Positions 46,950 to 55,195 of a DNA stretch of 64,000 nt are shown here, piece by piece. The stretch covers positions 49,794 through 113,793 of the forward strand of contig MGDH01000010.1 in NCBI GenBank assembly GCA_001790855.1, read 5' to 3'. The first letter of the stretch is position 1; each line of letters begins with the position of its first letter. Origin of the DNA: Candidatus Schekmanbacteria bacterium RIFCSPLOWO2_02_FULL_38_14. Its GTDB lineage: Bacteria > Schekmanbacteria > GWA2-38-11. A program made the translations under genes and the position numbers. The notes beneath the pieces were generated by a model. It ran no database searches and was not told the origin of the DNA. It was given only the letters and a program-made list of their open reading frames with translations.

Positions 46950-48275
46950 TTACTTTGTCTTTTCCAGAACCTCGTGGGCATTAGACTGGTGGAATTTCAA
47001 AAACTTTTCAGCAATCTCAGGCCTCTCTTTTTTCACCCTGTCCATCTTGGACATAAAAGCATCCTTCATCACTGCAGGCGCAGTATTTTCACTCACATAA
47101 CCATCATAAATCTCATTATCAGTAAGGCCGAACAGATAATCAATCTCATCATCATTTAAAAAACCGATGCCGTATCCCTTCAGGGCTTTTTCAATCTCAC
47201 CGGGCCAGCAATACTCAAATGTTTTCTTCCAGTAGTCTGTATATTCCTTATATCCGCAGTTGGTCTTGAGATGCTGCGCAGAAACTTTTCCAGCCTTATA
47301 GCCATACATCATTGCTCCCTGACAGTAGGTTTCAATAAATGATGGCGCATCGCCGACAGCTATTATATTTCCCTCAGCAGGTTCCTGAATACAGGTATAA
47401 AAATTAAGTGTTGCTGCTGCTGTATGGACAACCTTTGCACTCCTGAACCAGTGGCTGAATTTCCCGTTTTTCAGAAAATTATCAATCCCGATTTTGTTTG
47501 ATGATTTAATAACAGGCGTTGCATACATCAGGTCAATAATTGGCTTATCGCCGGGTTTTGCATCTGCAAGGTGCTTATCAAGCATATATATTGCACCATT
47601 ACCATCCGGTGTATGCCCTCTTCCAACAAAAATTATAAATGCAGGAGGAAATGGAGATTCCACGCCTTCCAGAAAATAAGAAGCTACACGGAAGGTTATG
47701 AAAAATTTTCTTTTTCTAAAGGCTTCAAGCCCAAGAACAATCTGCGAATTCACTCCGTCTGCTGCAACAGCAACACGGCATTTCACATCCTTTACAGCCC
47801 TTGAACGGTTTCCGCGGAAGGATACCCTGACCTCATCTTTTTTTATATTCTCAGCCTTCAGCCCAAATGTCTCTGTCAGAACATCAACGCCAAGTTTTTC
47901 TGCATCTTCTAAAAGCCCCCGCAAAAGCACTTCCTTATTATAGGCAATAGAAACTCCATTGGGGTTGCTCATTATAAGTTTTTTTCCGCCCGGAGTAATT
48001 CTTATTGACTGTTCCAGTTTAGCCCATTGCCCTGTGTATTTAACCTTCAAGCCGAGTTTTTCATAATGGATATTGTTATCTACAATACTGCAGTTATCTC
48101 CGTGGGTACTTACCTCATTTATAAGCATCGTACAGCATGACCTGTCAATCCTGGGGATATCCCTTTTCATATCCATAAGAAGAACACTCAATCCTTCTTC
48201 AGCAGCAGTTTTTGCTGTCATCAATCCTGCGGGCCCTGCCCCGATTACCACCATGTCATATTTGTTCTTAAGCAT
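46950..48275 (-). CDS. Geranylgeranyl-reductase-family / FixC-like FAD oxidoreductase
   Basis: 441 residues. The FAD Rossmann motif is VVIGAGPAGLMTAKTAAEEG; later family motifs are AVAADGVNSQIV and GDAPSFIETYCQGAMMYGYKAG. A cysteine-rich patch (SCCTML) sits near residue 47. The superfamily reduces isoprenoid double bonds or, as FixC/ETF-QO, exchanges electrons with quinone. It is the last gene of a seven-gene redox operon and directly follows a two-cluster ferredoxin, a FixC-FixX-like pairing. The acceptor is unknown. Confidence 0.82.
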   Translation of the reverse strand: MLKNKYDMVVIGAGPAGLMTAKTAAEEGLSVLLMDMKRDIPRIDRSCCTMLINEVSTHGDNCSIVDNNIHYEKLGLKVKYTGQWAKLEQSIRITPGGKKLIMSNPNGVSIAYNKEVLLRGLLEDAEKLGVDVLTETFGLKAENIKKDEVRVSFRGNRSRAVKDVKCRVAVAADGVNSQIVLGLEAFRKRKFFITFRVASYFLEGVESPFPPAFIIFVGRGHTPDGNGAIYMLDKHLADAKPGDKPIIDLMYATPVIKSSNKIGIDNFLKNGKFSHWFRSAKVVHTAAATLNFYTCIQEPAEGNIIAVGDAPSFIETYCQGAMMYGYKAGKVSAQHLKTNCGYKEYTDYWKKTFEYCWPGEIEKALKGYGIGFLNDDEIDYLFGLTDNEIYDGYVSENTAPAVMKDAFMSKMDRVKKERPEIAEKFLKFHQSNAHEVLEKTK

Positions 48276-48308
48276 AACTAAAACCTTTTAGCTGTTAGCT
48301 GAAAGCTG

Positions 48309-48542
48309 TCAGCTGTCAGCTTCTTCTGTAAACGGATTGCTCTCAAAATTAAGGGAAATAACATCAGGGAAACGGCAGTCAGAATATATTGCAGTAACAC
48401 CGCAAACTGCCCTGCAGGTCCCGCATTCGATACACGAAAGCTGGTCAATATAAGATTTATTGTCAATAAACCTTATTGCAACCCTCGGGCATTGATTGAC
48501 ACAACCACCGCACCCCGCACATATATCTCTATCTACTTTCAT
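48309..48542 (-). CDS. Two-cluster 4Fe-4S ferredoxin
   Basis: 77 residues with CAGCGGCVNQCP and CIECGTCRAVCG, each ending in a Cys. The 3' end and following spacer contain repeated AGCTG/CAGCT units (48290-48323). It lies between the NuoG-like and FixC-like genes and probably carries electrons between them, in the manner of FixX. Confidence 0.9.
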   Translation of the reverse strand: MKVDRDICAGCGGCVNQCPRVAIRFIDNKSYIDQLSCIECGTCRAVCGVTAIYSDCRFPDVISLNFESNPFTEEADS

Positions 48543-48561
48543 AAGTTAAATTCCAAAAATA

Positions 48562-49356
48562 TTAGGGTTTAGATTTTTTCACTTCCTCTTTCTTGCACAT
48601 CAGGCATGTTTCAAAAAATTCATCCTGCACCTTTACTTTCTCTCTTATAAACTCTACCTGCTTTGAAGGAATAAAACTCTCCCCGCATACCTTGCATTTT
48701 TTATAGTCAAACCCGACTTTCCAGTTATCAATAATCATTGCCGGTCCATTAATCTCTTCTCCCTCAGGTATTTGAGCCTTTTCACCCTCTTCAATCTCGT
48801 GCATCTTCACAGCACCTGTCGGGCACACATAAAAACAGGTCCCGCAGCCAATACAGTCTTTTGACTTTTTGAAAAATGGAGAGGCGACAACCCGTTCATA
48901 TCCTCTCTTCACATAATCAATTGCTGAAACACCTACAATCTCCCTGCATGCCCTGATACACAAGCCGCAGAGAATACACGGTTCATTCTTGCTTTTGAAT
49001 CTTTCTATCTTTTTTACTTTCAAGCGCTCTGCAAGCTCAAGGAGTTTGCTGTTTTCTGATGCATCTATCAGAAGAAGCCTTAAAACCAGCTCCCTTACTT
49101 TTTTAACCCTATCTGTATCTGTTCTTACAACAAGTCCGTCTTCAACAATATACTGGCATGATGAAACAATCCTTGAATTACTGTTCTCGCCAATTTCCAC
49201 AGCGCACAGCCTGCACCCGCCATAGGGCTTCATGGAATCATGATGGCACAAAGTCGGAATATAAATCATCTCCTGCCTTGCAACATCAAGGATTGTAGCA
49301 CCCTCTTTGGCTTCTGTTTTTATTCCATTAATTTTTATACTCAGCATTTTTCCCAT
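48562..49356 (-). CDS. NuoG/HydA-N-terminal-like [2Fe-2S] + 4Fe-4S protein
   Basis: 264 residues. A plant-type [2Fe-2S] domain (CHHDSMKPYGGCRLC ... SCQ) is followed by two 4Fe-4S motifs (CILCGLCIRACRE, CIGCGTCFYVCPTG) and two CxxC pairs near the end (CKVC, CLMC), possibly a zinc ribbon. This is the small electron-relay form of NuoG found in NAD-linked hydrogenases and formate dehydrogenases. The molybdopterin-like part is absent. An internal ATG at 49347 is an alternative start. It follows the NuoF-like gene after a 141-bp gap full of palindromes. Confidence 0.88.
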   Translation of the reverse strand: MGKMLSIKINGIKTEAKEGATILDVARQEMIYIPTLCHHDSMKPYGGCRLCAVEIGENSNSRIVSSCQYIVEDGLVVRTDTDRVKKVRELVLRLLLIDASENSKLLELAERLKVKKIERFKSKNEPCILCGLCIRACREIVGVSAIDYVKRGYERVVASPFFKKSKDCIGCGTCFYVCPTGAVKMHEIEEGEKAQIPEGEEINGPAMIIDNWKVGFDYKKCKVCGESFIPSKQVEFIREKVKVQDEFFETCLMCKKEEVKKSKP

Positions 49357-49380
49357 CTGTTTTCTGTATTTTGATATTTG

Positions 49381-49473
49381 TAATAACAGACCTTTAGGTC
49401 TGTTATTAACAGGTCTGAAGACCTGTTTCTACATTTTCTCTTTGCATATTCGAGAGACAGCCGAGACGGCTGT
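49381..49473. repeat. Three palindromes within the redox operon
   Basis: TAATAACAGACC(TTTA)GGTCTGTTATTA at 49381-49408, AACAGGTCT-GA-AGACCTGTT at 49408-49427 and ACAGCCG-AGA-CGGCTGT at 49457-49473. In RNA they would form consecutive hairpins between the NuoF-like and NuoG-like coding regions. Confidence 0.75.
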
Positions 49474-49497
49474 CCTACTTCTTACTTCTTAATTCTT

Positions 49498-51408
49498 TTA
49501 CTTTGTCACCACTGCATCAACCGGGCAAATCTCCTTGCATGCAGAACACTTGGTGCATTTCTTAACATCAATAACATGAGCCTTTTTCTTTTCTCCTGTT
49601 ATTGCATCAACAGGGCATGCTTCAATGCATTTCCCGCATGCAATACAGGTAGAGGGTTCAATACGGTATTTTATAAGTTTCTTGCATACACCAGCCGGAC
49701 ATTTCTTCTCATTTATATGCGCCTCATATTCATCTCTGAAATATCGCAGAGTTGTCAGCACAGGATTTGGCGCGGTGGCTCCTAAGTTACAGAAAGAGCC
49801 ATCCTTGATAGACTGTGCCATCTCTTCCAGAAGTTCTATATCTTCTGCCCTTCCATTTCCCCTTGTAATATCCTCAACAATCTCCCTCATCTTTCTTACC
49901 CCAACTCTGCACGGAACACACTTGCCGCAGGATTCATCTTCTAAATAGCTCAGAAAATATTTTGCAATATCCACCATGCAGGTATCCTCATCCATCACAA
50001 CCATTCCGCCTGAACCCATGATAGAGCCTGCTTTTTTAAGCTCATCATAATCAATTGGTAAATTCAGCATATTTGCAGGTATGCATCCACCTGAAGGACC
50101 TCCTGTCTGAACTGCTTTGACCTTTTTATCTTTTGGGATGCCACCTCCAATATCAAATATGATTTCAGAGAGCGTAATGCCCATAGGCACTTCAACAAGC
50201 CCGACATTTTTAATCTTGCCCACAAGTGAAAACACCTTTGTTCCCTTGCTGTCTTTGGTTCCCATTGATGAGAACCATTCTGCGCCCTTTGCAATTATTG
50301 CCGGGATATTTGCAAGTGTCTCAACATTGTTGATGACTGTTGGCATATCCCAGAGCCCTGCAATTGCCGGGTAGGGAGGTCTCTGTCTCGGCTCACCCCA
50401 GCTACCTTCAATTGATCTTATAAGCGCTGTCTCTTCACCGCAAACAAAAGCTCCGGCTCCCTGAGTAATCTTAATATCAAAGTCAAAACCTGTTTTCATA
50501 ATTCCTTTACCAAGAAGCCCTGCATCTCTTGCCATCTTTAAAGCAGTCTCAAGTTTCTCTATTGCAATCGGGTATTCAGACCTGACATAGATATATCCCT
50601 GTGTTGCTCCAATTGCATAAGCTGCAATAATCATACCCTCTATTATAGAGTGTGGGTCCCCTTCAAGGATTGAACGGTCCATATATGCCCCCGGGTCACC
50701 CTCATCTGCGTTACAGATTACATATTTTGTTTTCCCCTGAGCCTTTCTTGCAACAGCCCATTTTCTTCCTGTCGGGAATCCTGCGCCGCCCCTCCCCCTT
50801 ATTCCTGATTTTTCAACATCTGATATTACCTTCTCAGGCTTTTTCTCCTTTAAAACCTTTGCAAGCGAAAAGTATCCGTCTCTGGCTATATATTCAGAAA
50901 TATTATTCGGGTCGATTATGCCACAGTTTCGCATGGCAATCTTCACCTGCTTCTTATAAAATGGAGTAGTATTTATCAATGGGACTGATAAAGCCTGCTG
51001 AGATTTGCCATCCGATAAAAGCCTTTTAGTAAAACCGGAAATAGGAAATTTATCCTCATCAGTTCTACCAATTGCCTTTGATGAAACCTTGCCTGAAATA
51101 GTGTCTTTTAAGATATTTGAAACTTCCTGAGGTTTTACCTTTCCATATGTTATCCGTGGGAATTTCGGCATAGAGATATCAACAATTGGTTCTGCATGGC
51201 ACAGACCAATGCATCCTGTCATTGTTATCCTGGGCTTTAAATTCTCTTTTGCAACCTCAGCAAGAATAGCTTCATACACGCCCTTTGCGCCTGTAGCACA
51301 ACCGCATGTTGACATACCAACACTTATCTTCATCTCTTCAGGGTAAAGAGATTTAAGTCCTTCTTCTTTTATTTTTTCAAGGTCACTTATGCTGTTTATT
51401 TTTCTCAT
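49498..51408 (-). CDS. NuoF/HydB-like NAD(P)H-FMN subunit with ferredoxin tail
   Basis: 636 residues from ATG 51408 (a TTG five codons earlier falls at the edge of a dispersed repeat). A thioredoxin-like [2Fe-2S] domain (STCGC ... GCIGLC, about 30-110) precedes the NuoF core with the FMN/NADH motif GIRGRGGAGFPTGRKW and GAGAFVCGEETAL, then the 4Fe-4S set CGKCVPCRVG. The end adds two ferredoxin motifs (CIACGKCIEACP, CTKCSACKEICP). This layout is typical of bifurcating hydrogenase beta subunits and is the NAD(P)-reactive module of the operon. Confidence 0.93.
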   Translation of the reverse strand: MRKINSISDLEKIKEEGLKSLYPEEMKISVGMSTCGCATGAKGVYEAILAEVAKENLKPRITMTGCIGLCHAEPIVDISMPKFPRITYGKVKPQEVSNILKDTISGKVSSKAIGRTDEDKFPISGFTKRLLSDGKSQQALSVPLINTTPFYKKQVKIAMRNCGIIDPNNISEYIARDGYFSLAKVLKEKKPEKVISDVEKSGIRGRGGAGFPTGRKWAVARKAQGKTKYVICNADEGDPGAYMDRSILEGDPHSIIEGMIIAAYAIGATQGYIYVRSEYPIAIEKLETALKMARDAGLLGKGIMKTGFDFDIKITQGAGAFVCGEETALIRSIEGSWGEPRQRPPYPAIAGLWDMPTVINNVETLANIPAIIAKGAEWFSSMGTKDSKGTKVFSLVGKIKNVGLVEVPMGITLSEIIFDIGGGIPKDKKVKAVQTGGPSGGCIPANMLNLPIDYDELKKAGSIMGSGGMVVMDEDTCMVDIAKYFLSYLEDESCGKCVPCRVGVRKMREIVEDITRGNGRAEDIELLEEMAQSIKDGSFCNLGATAPNPVLTTLRYFRDEYEAHINEKKCPAGVCKKLIKYRIEPSTCIACGKCIEACPVDAITGEKKKAHVIDVKKCTKCSACKEICPVDAVVTK

Positions 51409-51423
51409 TTTCTTCGGTTCCAA

Positions 51424-51471
51424 ATCCCCCCATCCCCCCTTTACTAAAGGGGGGGGTGAGGAGGGATTTAT
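51424..51471. repeat. CCCCCCTTTACTAAAGGGGGGG hairpin repeat
   Basis: Member of the hairpin family at 18965 and 21155, here in the 85-bp gap between NuoE-like and NuoF-like genes (quoted in the call is a 22-base stem region; arms are C6TTTA and TAAAGGGGGGG). Confidence 0.6.
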
Positions 51472-51493
51472 TTTATTCCAATTTGTTTTGGCC

Positions 51494-51973
51494 TCAAGTA
51501 TCTTTGTTATCTCTATATTTCTTCAATACCTCTGGAATTTTTTCCTGAGTTAAATCACCGTATATGTCTTCATTTATCCTCACAACAGGTGCAAGGCTGC
51601 AGCATCCGAGGCATCTTACTTTGCTAACAGTAAACTCCATGTCTTCGGTCGTACCTTCCTGAGAACTCAGATTAAGCTCGTTACCTATGCGACTAAGTAC
51701 ATTCTCTCCATTTTTTACATGGCATGCCGTACCCATACACACACTTATTTTATTTCTCCCTGTCGGGCTCAGGCTGAATGCCTTGTAGAAAGTTGCAACA
51801 GTAAAAAGCTTTGAAACAGGAAGTTCCAGTTTTTTGCTTAAAAAATATAATGATTCTTCCGGCAGGTAGTTATATCTTTTCTGTATCTCATGCATAATCG
51901 GGATAAGAGAATCCTCACTCCTCCCATAATTTTCTACAATTGAATCTATTGCTTTTTCATCTCTCTCTGTCAT
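51494..51973 (-). CDS. NuoE-like [2Fe-2S] subunit
   Basis: 159 residues. The thioredoxin-fold cluster ligands are C in MGTACHVKNG (with the usual C-x4-C replaced by a spaced CMGTAC) and CLGCCSLAP. Motifs LPEESLYFLSKKLELPVSK and ATFYKAFSLSPTGRNKI match NuoE/HydC. It pairs with the NuoF-like subunit downstream. Its start overlaps the PorB-like stop by 4 bp, indicating translational coupling of the Nuo-like and Por-like parts. Confidence 0.92.
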   Translation of the reverse strand: MTERDEKAIDSIVENYGRSEDSLIPIMHEIQKRYNYLPEESLYFLSKKLELPVSKLFTVATFYKAFSLSPTGRNKISVCMGTACHVKNGENVLSRIGNELNLSSQEGTTEDMEFTVSKVRCLGCCSLAPVVRINEDIYGDLTQEKIPEVLKKYRDNKDT

Positions 51974-52914
51974 TGCTTACTCTTTTCTAAAGAAAGAATT
52001 CTGGTATATTCTCTGTCCACTGATTTCCTGATAATCGAAACTGTATCTCCCCTAAAATTCCTGTAGCGGTCCTGAGATTTGATGTACTGCTCTACCTTTT
52101 CTGAATTTTCAACTTTCATTGTAAGGCTGAATTCTCCCTCTGATAATTCCCATAAGGGAAAGAATCTTGAATCTATGGCAAGCTTGGCAAGCTTTACAGT
52201 ATCCTGAGCAGGGAAAATCCATCCTGTCGGACACGGGGAATGGATTAGAACCAGAGCTGTCCCTTTTTTTTCCATTCCCTTTTTGATTTTATTAATCAGG
52301 TCAAACGGATAAGCAACTGATGCAGAAGCCGCATAAGAGATATTGCTTTCAGTTAATGGTTTTAACAGGCTTTTATCTTCCATTATAAAATCGAGCTCTT
52401 TTTCTCCCGGAATATGGTGTTCATATTCAATTCCGAATGCTGGCGGTATTGAATTCTTTATAAAACGGTCCATGTAGGGTTCGTTATCATAAAGAGCTAT
52501 CAGGATATTTAACTTCCTCTCCAGCAAATTAGAAAAAGCTGTGTAATTCTCCTCAAGGATTTTTTTGTCCAGAGCAATGGCAGGTTTTCTGACCCACTCT
52601 CTGGTAGTCTTTCCCTCTGATATTAATTTTTTATTCCCTCTGCCAATTCCTGAAACAATTGATTGTACAAGGTCATCAAAGGTCATTTCATCCCATCCAA
52701 AGCTCAGGGCATCAGGTCTTTCAAAAACTATCCCTTTTGAGTCATCTGATTTAAAAACAGCCTCCCTGCCAAGTGCTTTTGAGGCAAACCTTACAGCCAT
52801 TGCCTTTCCGCATCCGGAGCAGGAACGCCTTCCTGTTACAAATGACTCTTCCTTTGGCAGGAGCTTTGGAACATAAATGTTGAATTTATCCATAATTTTT
52901 GAAAGTTCAAACAT
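51970..52914 (-). CDS. PorB-like 2-oxoacid:ferredoxin oxidoreductase beta-subunit homologue, degenerate thiamine site
   Basis: 314 residues from ATG 52914. PorB features are present: RRSCSGCGKAMAVRFASKALG, ALYDNEPYMDR and SPCPTGWIFPAQDTVKLAKLA. However, the GDGD...N segment that binds Mg-thiamine diphosphate is replaced by PAIALDKKILEENYTAF, and the third cluster cysteine after the first helix is missing (KSDDSKG). No PorA or PorG gene is nearby. It may have kept a protein-binding or cluster role only. It is the second gene of the operon, coupled to NuoE. Confidence 0.85.
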   Translation of the reverse strand: MFELSKIMDKFNIYVPKLLPKEESFVTGRRSCSGCGKAMAVRFASKALGREAVFKSDDSKGIVFERPDALSFGWDEMTFDDLVQSIVSGIGRGNKKLISEGKTTREWVRKPAIALDKKILEENYTAFSNLLERKLNILIALYDNEPYMDRFIKNSIPPAFGIEYEHHIPGEKELDFIMEDKSLLKPLTESNISYAASASVAYPFDLINKIKKGMEKKGTALVLIHSPCPTGWIFPAQDTVKLAKLAIDSRFFPLWELSEGEFSLTMKVENSEKVEQYIKSQDRYRNFRGDTVSIIRKSVDREYTRILSLEKSKQ

Positions 52915-52923
52915 CAAAATCCA

Positions 52924-52996
52924 AATGTCAAATTAATTTCAAATAACCAAATACCATTTTTTATTTTGTCATTTGAACTTTGGATTTTGTCATTTT
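52924..52996. repeat. Dispersed TTTGAACTTTGGATTTTGTCATTT repeat region
   Basis: Related to the units at 16735 and 55966; here it fills the gap between the PorD-like and PorB-like genes. Confidence 0.5.
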
Positions 52997-53000
52997 ATAT

Positions 53001-53288
53001 CTAATACCTTGGGTGCCTTGCAGGGAGCTCCTTCTTTTGCATACTTATACAGCCTGTTACACACTGAGATTTACAGACACCACAACCCTTGCACAGGTCC
53101 TCATCTGCCTCAAAGTATCCCTCATCCACCATCTTAATCGCGCTGTCAGGGCAGAAAAGGTAACATACTCCACATTTAATACACTTGTCCCTATCTACCA
53201 CAGGCTTCTCTTTTTTCCAGTCCCTGTTGCTTTTGAAATCTGTGATAAATGGAATGTTAGAATCTTTTTCTTCAGCCATATCCTTCAT
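53001..53288 (-). CDS. PorD-like 4Fe-4S ferredoxin subunit
   Basis: 95 residues. The delta-subunit layout is clear: a basic lead (KEKPVVDRDKC) then CIKCGVCYLFCPDSAI and CKGCGVCKSQCVTG, two [4Fe-4S] clusters. First gene of the redox operon. With PorB it retains two of the four normal pyruvate:ferredoxin oxidoreductase parts. An internal ATG at 53279 is an alternative start. Confidence 0.9.
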   Translation of the reverse strand: MKDMAEEKDSNIPFITDFKSNRDWKKEKPVVDRDKCIKCGVCYLFCPDSAIKMVDEGYFEADEDLCKGCGVCKSQCVTGCISMQKKELPARHPRY

Positions 53289-53527
53289 TTTTTTTCTTTT
53301 AACTTAATATTTTAATAAAACAGAGCCGTAATATAATCATGTTAGAAATAAAATCAAGAATTTTATTAGAAATCTGCCGTTATTATAAAAAAAAAATTTT
53401 TTTAAATAATTTTATTTGATTTTAACAAAATATTAATCTACTATTAATAAGTATAATTAAACAGAAAAAGCAACAGGAGTAAAAATAAAATAGTATCTAA
53501 AATGAAATCTTTTATTTGGGAGAATTT

Positions 53528-55195
53528 ATGTTGAAATCCATGTTTATTAAGTTTTTAAATCTCAGCACAATAATTCTTGTTTTGCTTTTAGGCGCCGGCT
53601 CCTTTTCTTCTGCTTACGCACAGCCTGACATCTCAGTATCCCCAACAAGCCATAACTTTGGAAATGTAACAGAAGGAAATTCATCTACCCCCCTGACTGT
53701 AACTATTTCTAACGATGGAGATGGAGACCTTACAATAACATCGCTTTCAATAACAGGGACAGATTTAACAGAATTTTCTATTGATCCTGATTCTGACACC
53801 TGTTCAGGCGAAATCATAGCCCCTGCTGGAGACTGCACCGCAGATATAACATTTGATCCCGCAACAGAAGGAGCAAAAAGCGCTAATCTATCCATTTCAT
53901 CTGATGACCCAAATGAAGACCCACTCAATATTTCACTCACAGGAACAGGTGAAGCAGTTCCTCCTCCCGGAGTGACTGATATATCTGTTTCTTACAACAG
54001 CCATGACTTTGGAGATGTGAATCCCGGCGATTCATCAACTCCTTTCACCATAATTATTTCTAACAATAGCACTGTAAATCTTACAATAACATCGCTTTCA
54101 ATAACAGGGACAGATTTAACAGAATTTTCTATTGATCCTGATTCTGACACCTGTTCAGGCGAAATCATAGCCCCTACTGGAGACTGCACCGCAGATATAA
54201 CATTTGATCCCGCAACAGAAGGAGCAAAAAGCGCTAATCTGTCCATTTCATCTGATGACCCAAATGAAGACCCATTTGATGTTTCTCTCTTAGGAACAGG
54301 AGTTGTGCCTGACATATCAGCAGATCCAGAGTTATTAAACTTTGTAGATATAACAGTGGATACCTCGTCTGAACCACAGGAAGTACTGATTTCTAATAAT
54401 GGTGAAGGAGCTCTTGAAATTACAGACATTTCTATAACGGGACTTAACAAAGATGAGTTCTCTATCTATTCATCAGAAGAATGTTTAGGAGTAACACTTT
54501 TAACAGGAGAAAGTTGTTCAGTCAGTGTTGTTTTTGAACCAACATCAGAAGGCAACAAACAGGCAAAACTGTCCATAGAATCTGATGACCCCGATGAAAA
54601 TCCGCTTAAACTTTCTCTTACAGGCAGAGGCTTTGTACCCTGCGGAAATAGCCCTGAGATTAAAACCCTCAGCAAATCAAAGGGGACATACAGTGATACT
54701 GTGGTAATAAAGGGAAGCGGTTTCTGCACTGACCAGGGAACAGTCATATTTGCAAAAGGAACTATAGGGGTTGAAGCAGAAATAGATGGAGATGGCTGGG
54801 AAGACACTAAAATCACAGTCAGAGTGCCATGGGGTTGTCAGGTTGGTAAAAACAAGGTCAAGGTTATTACAAATTACGGAACAGAAAGCGCCACTAAACC
54901 TTTCAAATTTTTAAAACCACTGCTTGTAATCACAAAACTGTCTCTTCCGTCAGGAAGCATAGCCTCAGAGCTTGAAATTACAGGAAAAAACTTTGGCATA
55001 CAGGATGAAAATAACAGCTTTGTCCAGTTTGATAAAACTAAGGCTGAAATCTCTGAATGGAAAAATGACAGCATAATTTTAACTATACCATCTATTATTA
55101 AGGTAACGAAAAAGGGGAAGATTGTCTCAATATCCGTGAATACAATCTACGGCTTGAGCAAATCTAAAAAGTTTAAAGTGCTACCAGTTAAGTAA
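53528..55195 (+). CDS. Exported choice-of-anchor-D (ASH-like) and TIG-domain protein
   Basis: 555 residues from ATG 53528, with GGGAG 6 nt upstream. Signal peptide to about residue 32 (SSAYAQP). Three consecutive ASH/choice-of-anchor-D repeats follow (SPTSHNFGNVTEGNSS, SYNSHDFGDVNPGDSS, DPELLNFVDITVDTSS), each ending in SDDPxExPLxxSLxG. Two TIG domains close the protein (SKGTYSDTVVIKGSGF, LPSGSIASELEITGKNF). No anchor motif is visible at the C-terminus. Probably a surface or periplasmic adhesion protein. Confidence 0.85.
   Translation: MLKSMFIKFLNLSTIILVLLLGAGSFSSAYAQPDISVSPTSHNFGNVTEGNSSTPLTVTISNDGDGDLTITSLSITGTDLTEFSIDPDSDTCSGEIIAPAGDCTADITFDPATEGAKSANLSISSDDPNEDPLNISLTGTGEAVPPPGVTDISVSYNSHDFGDVNPGDSSTPFTIIISNNSTVNLTITSLSITGTDLTEFSIDPDSDTCSGEIIAPTGDCTADITFDPATEGAKSANLSISSDDPNEDPFDVSLLGTGVVPDISADPELLNFVDITVDTSSEPQEVLISNNGEGALEITDISITGLNKDEFSIYSSEECLGVTLLTGESCSVSVVFEPTSEGNKQAKLSIESDDPDENPLKLSLTGRGFVPCGNSPEIKTLSKSKGTYSDTVVIKGSGFCTDQGTVIFAKGTIGVEAEIDGDGWEDTKITVRVPWGCQVGKNKVKVITNYGTESATKPFKFLKPLLVITKLSLPSGSIASELEITGKNFGIQDENNSFVQFDKTKAEISEWKNDSIILTIPSIIKVTKKGKIVSISVNTIYGLSKSKKFKVLPVK
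53729..54274 (+). repeat. Internal 351-bp-period tandem duplication
   Basis: Bases 53729-53923 and 54080-54274 are almost identical (about two differences in 195 bp). This is one 117-codon repeat unit duplicated recently in frame. Confidence 0.85.

Follow-up and report, generated by a model that had tools for sequence, protein, structure and literature searches.

Seven stop-free open reading frames, all on the minus strand, lie at positions 46950 to 53288 of the window (the whole 64,000-nucleotide stretch analyzed). Their Pfam and NCBIfam matches agreed with the identities listed for them in a first-pass annotation of this DNA: PorD-like, PorB-like, NuoE, NuoF, small NuoG-like, a two-cluster ferredoxin and a flavoprotein related to geranylgeranyl reductase (GGR) (Table 1). 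The 4-bp ATGA overlap between the PorB stop (51970) and the NuoE start (51973) was found as described there, and so was the lack of PorA and PorG, neither of which is encoded in the operon or its flanks in the window, or in the two related operons considered below. No ETF gene (FixAB) was present within the three operons, and none was recognized in the flanks. The most likely start of the PorB-like protein, here called PorB', is the ATG at 52893 (307 aa) rather than the TTG at 52917, which falls within an inverted repeat, and that of NuoF is the ATG at 51408 (636 aa), because the TTGs upstream are located within repeat-like sequence or immediately behind it, and the proteins of the relatives start at or near the ATG. 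Palindromic or repeated short sequences, seemingly different from one another, occupy four intergenic gaps: PorD-PorB (52902-52989), NuoE-NuoF (51427-51465), NuoF-NuoG (49400-49474) and ferredoxin-GGR (48305-48330). Divergent from the operon, at 53516-55195, is a gene for a secreted-looking protein with near-identical repeats (DISVSPTSHNFGNV..., ~120 aa each).

Table 1. Genes of the operon and the profile matches on which their assignments are based.
Product	Coordinates	Strand	Profile matches
PorD-like 2x[4Fe-4S] ferredoxin subunit, 95 aa	53001..53288	-	TIGR02179 PorD_KorD, 76.4 bits, above cut-off
PorB', POR beta-like, dismantled TPP site	51970..52893	-	NCBIfam PorB/VorB/oxalate oxidoreductase beta, 162-164 bits
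BfuC (NuoE/HydC-type) [2Fe-2S] subunit	51494..51973	-	PF01257, 160 bits
BfuB (HydB-type NuoF)	49498..51408	-	PF01512, PF10589, SLBB, Fer4
BfuA (small NuoG/HoxU-like)	48562..49356	-	PF13510, PF12838
2x[4Fe-4S] ferredoxin	48309..48542	-	PF00037/PF13237
GGR-like FAD flavoprotein	46950..48275	-	TIGR02032, 90.1 bits, under cut-off of 158.8

Conservation of the seven-gene order

The first-pass annotation had proposed looking for the same gene order in other genomes. In our phylum sample of four species, the same seven genes were found in the same order (PorD, PorB', NuoE, NuoF, small NuoG, two-cluster ferredoxin, GGR-like flavoprotein) in two further genera, both of another family (genomes G002 and G003). 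Since the order is thus shared by three genera, belonging to two families of one order, and the flanking genes differ, this comparison indicates that the linkage is not due to chance. The operon was not seen in the fourth genome of the phylum, which is 70% complete. The intergenic gaps are compact in G002 and G003, where the genes lie nearly back to back, and repeat-bearing in the window genome (2.68 Mb), which has kept the gene order despite the repeat-like insertions. The possibility, raised in the same annotation, that conserved neighbors would reveal a complete Por or hydrogenase operon was not borne out in the three genera; a Por or hydrogenase operon was ruled out, there being no PorA, PorG, H-cluster or NiFe subunit. 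Among the three genomes, identities were highest for the ferredoxin (71-83%) and the GGR-like flavoprotein (66-80%), followed by PorD (63-66%), NuoF/BfuB (60-68%), NuoG (56-64%) and NuoE (52-60%), and were lowest for PorB' (40-49%), the fastest evolving of the seven.

When a GGR profile was run over 386 genomes, in a first look that scored at most four candidates per genome, matches were confined to this order. A PorB profile run over 386 genomes recovered 12 genomes with Por-Bfu, a system described below, and no further PorB' was present among the best matches examined. A scan of further genome contigs for the operon gave, as its sole match, a GGR orthologue at the edge of WTBG01000128.1 (MAG Deltaproteobacteria bacterium GLR311), 60% identical over the part present. 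The open-access literature held nothing relevant on Bfu or HydABC combined with GGR. The seven-gene combination was found in no other phylum sampled and, judged from that literature, is apparently undescribed.

The NuoEFG part and the Bfu family

What defines the Bfu family is a BfuBC core that contains a special B2 cluster, whose ligands in NiFe-Bfu are C438, C476 (often Thr), H525, C531 and C536 (Schut et al., PMC9304861). All five are present in the NuoF-like protein of the window, as C482, T520, H569, C575 and C580 (residue numbers follow the 641-aa ORF starting at 51423), with the same spacing of 38/87/93/98 as in NiFe-Bfu (PMC9304861); the T520 position reads T/S/T in the three genomes. 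The window genome also has a complex I-type NuoF, encoded on contig C25, in which the last B2 Cys and the ferredoxin tail are missing and the His is kept, so that the His alone is non-discriminating here. As the B2 ligands and their spacing match, and as neither the last Cys nor the tail occurs in the complex I-type NuoF, we assign the NuoEFG part on its sequence to a Bfu-type (HydABC-type) module. A complex I fragment was ruled out, as the complex I-type genes of the genome sit on C25.

BfuB scored 170 bits with PF01512, 112 bits with PF10589 and 42 bits with PF14697, and its SLBB match (PF10531, 20.6 bits) was under the cut-off of 27. The protein begins with a thioredoxin-like [2Fe-2S]-type stretch, continues with FMN/NADH and SLBB domains and ends in 2x[4Fe-4S] clusters; besides the ferredoxin tail noticed at first reading, there is thus a [2Fe-2S]-type domain at the N-terminus. 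The B5 motif in this N-terminal part is irregular, with four oddly spaced Cys in the window and three in G002 and G003. Encoded beside BfuB are BfuC (PF01257), with ligand Cys at 79, 84, 121 and 125, and BfuA (PF13510 plus Fer4), with a [2Fe-2S] cluster, 2x[4Fe-4S] and a C-terminal CxxC...CxxC. In common with the window operon, the bifurcating hydrogenases HydABC and NiFe-Bfu have a BfuB and a BfuC with all the B2 ligands, whereas the window operon lacks an H-cluster or NiFe subunit and its BfuA is short and without the His-Cys3 cluster. Among Por-Bfu BfuBs, one (L037, genome G024) is missing most of its B5 [2Fe-2S] Cys, although the literature holds BfuBC cofactors to be absolutely conserved, and another (L035, genome G038) has Lys at the T520 position.

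These assignments bear on the suggestion that the operon encodes an undescribed NAD(P)H:ferredoxin:flavoprotein complex, possibly bifurcating. That the whole may be such a complex still stands; its NuoEFG part is not new and belongs to the described Bfu family. By analogy with the family, bifurcation or confurcation is hypothesized for this module, and the cofactor is assumed to be NAD(H) rather than NADP(H).

The Por part and its origin

A Por-Bfu enzyme with four Por subunits, a predicted bifurcating pyruvate oxidoreductase found for example in Dehalococcoides, has already been proposed (PMC9304861), so that the fusion of Por and Nuo parts noted in the first-pass annotation is not in itself a novelty. 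In the 12 Por-Bfu genomes, all of other lineages, the order was PorG-PorD-PorA-PorB-BfuC-BfuB-BfuA. PorG and PorA were present in all 10 genomes whose contig extends that far, PorB had an intact TPP motif (GDG...N, with GDG(G/S)T) and also TGC(M/L)E in 12 of 12, and no ferredoxin-GGR pair occurred in the stretches read. The window operon shares the order PorD, PorB, BfuC, BfuB, BfuA with Por-Bfu but lacks PorG, PorA and the TPP motif, adds a ferredoxin and a GGR-like flavoprotein, and has a BfuB of another clade.

In PorB' of the three genomes, LDK, IDM or IDF stands where GDG is expected, a loss that the first reading had overlooked. All three proteins have also lost TGC(M/L)E, and with it one of the four cluster Cys, as well as MNTG, MD replacing MN after YDNE; the Asp of GDG and YDNE are retained. 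In the beta subunit of oxalate oxidoreductase, C24, C27, C52 and C225 are the proximal-cluster ligands, and comparison with this protein showed that PorB' keeps three of the four (C33, C36 and C229). PorD, which is 63-64% identical to its counterparts in G002 and G003, keeps all eight cluster Cys. PorB' had no Pfam match. Its model (pLDDT 70, with low confidence in the N-terminal part) adopted a POR/OOR beta fold (Z ~22), an outcome favored by the inclusion of normal PORs in the model alignment.

Since the window-type operon has neither PorA nor PorG and its PorB has a destroyed TPP motif, there is strong reason to infer that 2-oxoacid chemistry has been lost from it, and the Cys that remain in PorB' and PorD suggest that these two subunits were retained as a cluster relay or scaffold. 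It could instead be argued that PorB' continues to catalyze a 2-oxoacid reaction with a PorA borrowed from another POR locus, given the retained Asp and YDNE and the two other POR-type beta loci in the genome. This is highly improbable, however, as the three motifs are lost in every one of the three genomes from the least conserved subunit of the operon, and the C18 beta subunit (L032) retains GDG. Judged by the defining features tested, namely PorA/PorG, the TPP motif and the BfuB clade, the window-type operon is not a Por-Bfu member.

The trees gave a mixed picture of its origin. PorB' clustered with the PorB proteins of Por-Bfu to the exclusion of other PORs (support 96/96), its stem measuring 2.08 changes per site, whereas BfuB fell outside the clade of sampled Por-Bfu BfuBs (AU p 1.2e-7 against grouping), which argues against simple inheritance of the Bfu core from sampled Por-Bfu. 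In the AU test, the Por-Bfu grouping was marginal for BfuC (p 0.06) and compatible for BfuA (p 0.58), and these two trees leave the origin unsettled. Simple vertical descent from the sampled Por-Bfu clade was thus favored by the PorB tree and rejected by the BfuB tree. The operon may be a hybrid, or the descendant of another Por-Bfu clade outside the sample.

The ferredoxin-flavoprotein pair and a possible third-substrate site

Two canonical CxxCxxCxxxC clusters are followed by a conserved C-terminal SDCRF...ESNPF tail in the operon ferredoxin, of which no second copy was found in the four phylum genomes at E 1e-8. The AlphaFold model of the flavoprotein (pLDDT 91.8) matched Thermoplasma GGR best in the PDB (3oz2, Z 35.6 over 377 residues, rmsd 3.5), the next entry having Z 29.1 and FixC (7koe_C) ranking third with Z 28.6; according to the model, the protein is structurally nearer GGR than FixC. 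Its substrate motif PxxYxWxFP is altered, TPDGNGAIYMLDK standing in its place, and as it also scores under the GGR cut-off, its substrate may not be isoprenoid. The catalytic cysteine of the Sulfolobus acidocaldarius GGR is Cys47. C47/C48 of the flavoprotein lie within one or two aligned residues of the TaGGR Cys and are not fully conserved among paralogues. Including the operon copy, there are three GGR-like matches in the window genome (G000) and eight each in G002 and G003. Neighbors of the paralogues (MFS transporters, an amidohydrolase, AOR, a fumarate reductase flavoprotein) gave no common hint of a substrate, and a crotonyl-CoA reductase family search was uninformative. As the genome encodes UbiA prenyltransferases and has complex I-type genes, prenylated quinones could be substrates, but nothing ties them to the operon.

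Several GGR-like loci had features of their own. On the deltaproteobacterial MAG contig (L058:2329-3897), the gene downstream of two tandem GGR-like genes encodes an MFS transporter whose C-terminal domain is PCP_red (protochlorophyllide reductase 57 kD). In two genera (L084:172-4093 and L085:4818-9844), an amidohydrolase-like gene is followed by a GGR-like paralogue bearing a CCC motif, and in L085 a fumarate reductase flavoprotein-like gene comes after the paralogue. At L079:6326-11792, a paralogue lies near genes for an aldehyde ferredoxin oxidoreductase and an FrhB-domain protein.

According to the first-pass annotation, FixC-like flavoproteins can split electrons. The bifurcating flavin of FixABCX resides in the ETF part, so electron splitting by a FixC-like protein is not expected. 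FixABCX/EtfABCX resembles the window operon in the idea of NADH-linked bifurcation and in combining a FixC-like fold with a small Fe-S protein, but the operon has no FixAB (ETF), and bifurcation, if any, would take place in BfuBC, at the BfuB FMN and nearby clusters. The operon could still be a Bfu analogue of FixABCX, in which a quinone or ETF:quinone-type flavoprotein coupled NADH oxidation to the reduction of quinone and ferredoxin. The FixC rank in the fold search, the Fe-S protein gene beside the flavoprotein gene, which mirrors FixX-FixC, and the quinones made likely by the UbiA and complex I-type genes are consistent with such a role, whereas both sequence and fold of the flavoprotein are nearer GGR, and the ferredoxin carries two clusters, its 25 best matches including no FixX model. 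We consider this alternative quite unlikely.

Ferredoxin-GGR operon pairs are known, and that of Thermococcus kodakarensis (TK1087-TK1088) co-purifies (PMC6401487); archaeal GGRs, including that of Methanosarcina acetivorans, can adjoin a ferredoxin gene (PMC6401487; PMC10821996). The ferredoxin gene of the window is likewise directly upstream of a gene for a GGR-fold FAD protein, but here the PxxYxWxFP motif is altered, the pair is linked to Bfu genes and the host is bacterial. As the linkage is invariant and these two subunits are the best conserved, we propose that the ferredoxin and the GGR-like FAD protein form a new third-substrate module. Sharing one operon does not prove one complex, and the locus might encode two units, a soluble Bfu-PorDB' NADH:ferredoxin oxidoreductase and a separate ferredoxin-GGR pair using reduced ferredoxin. 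Archaeal GGRs do function with a free, adjacently encoded ferredoxin (PMC6401487), and the two genes, being the last of the operon, could be an added cassette. Nevertheless, the strict linkage of all seven genes in three of three genomes, despite the insertions in the gaps of the window genome, and the fact that no reaction is known that a Bfu enzyme could perform in the absence of a third substrate, make the two-unit arrangement doubtful.

The reading that we prefer, with a probability of roughly 0.57, is that the operon encodes one Bfu-family complex, in which the third-substrate site has moved from 2-oxoacid/TPP to the ferredoxin-GGR pair and PorD-PorB' serves as relay or scaffold. The partners in electron exchange with BfuBC would be NAD(H), at FMN, and soluble ferredoxin, and BfuA, as expected from the family, would carry electrons outwards. 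In a normal Por-Bfu, the TPP between PorA and PorB would be the place where pyruvate is oxidized or made. In the window-type operon, NADH, alone or together with reduced ferredoxin, would supply electrons that pass from BfuA through PorB'/PorD to the dedicated 2x[4Fe-4S] ferredoxin and on to the FAD of the GGR-like protein, which would reduce a carbon-carbon double bond, probably of an isoprenoid or other lipophilic substrate. We infer both the substrate and the direction of the complex; NADH and ferredoxin may both be donors, or the electrons of NADH may be divided between the GGR branch and free ferredoxin. A more specific version, in which Bfu bifurcation reduces ferredoxin with NADH and is coupled to reduction of an unactivated C=C bond at the GGR-type flavoprotein, with the dismantled POR subunit and its three-Cys, possibly open-sited Fe-S cluster acting as a wire, is unlikely.

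Bfu enzymes have a modular make-up, and for many of their clades no third substrate has been assigned (PMC9304861). The operon is a real, conserved variant of this family and not a new kind of system, and it probably works in the manner of a Bfu enzyme. It presents a catalytic module that has apparently been switched off and replaced while the Fe-S scaffold stayed, and points to a type of third substrate not listed for Bfu enzymes, that of a GGR-family alkene reductase. If this is true, the operon would offer an NADH-linked pathway for reducing alkenes, and it would serve as a natural experiment that tells which POR parts have wiring as their sole purpose.
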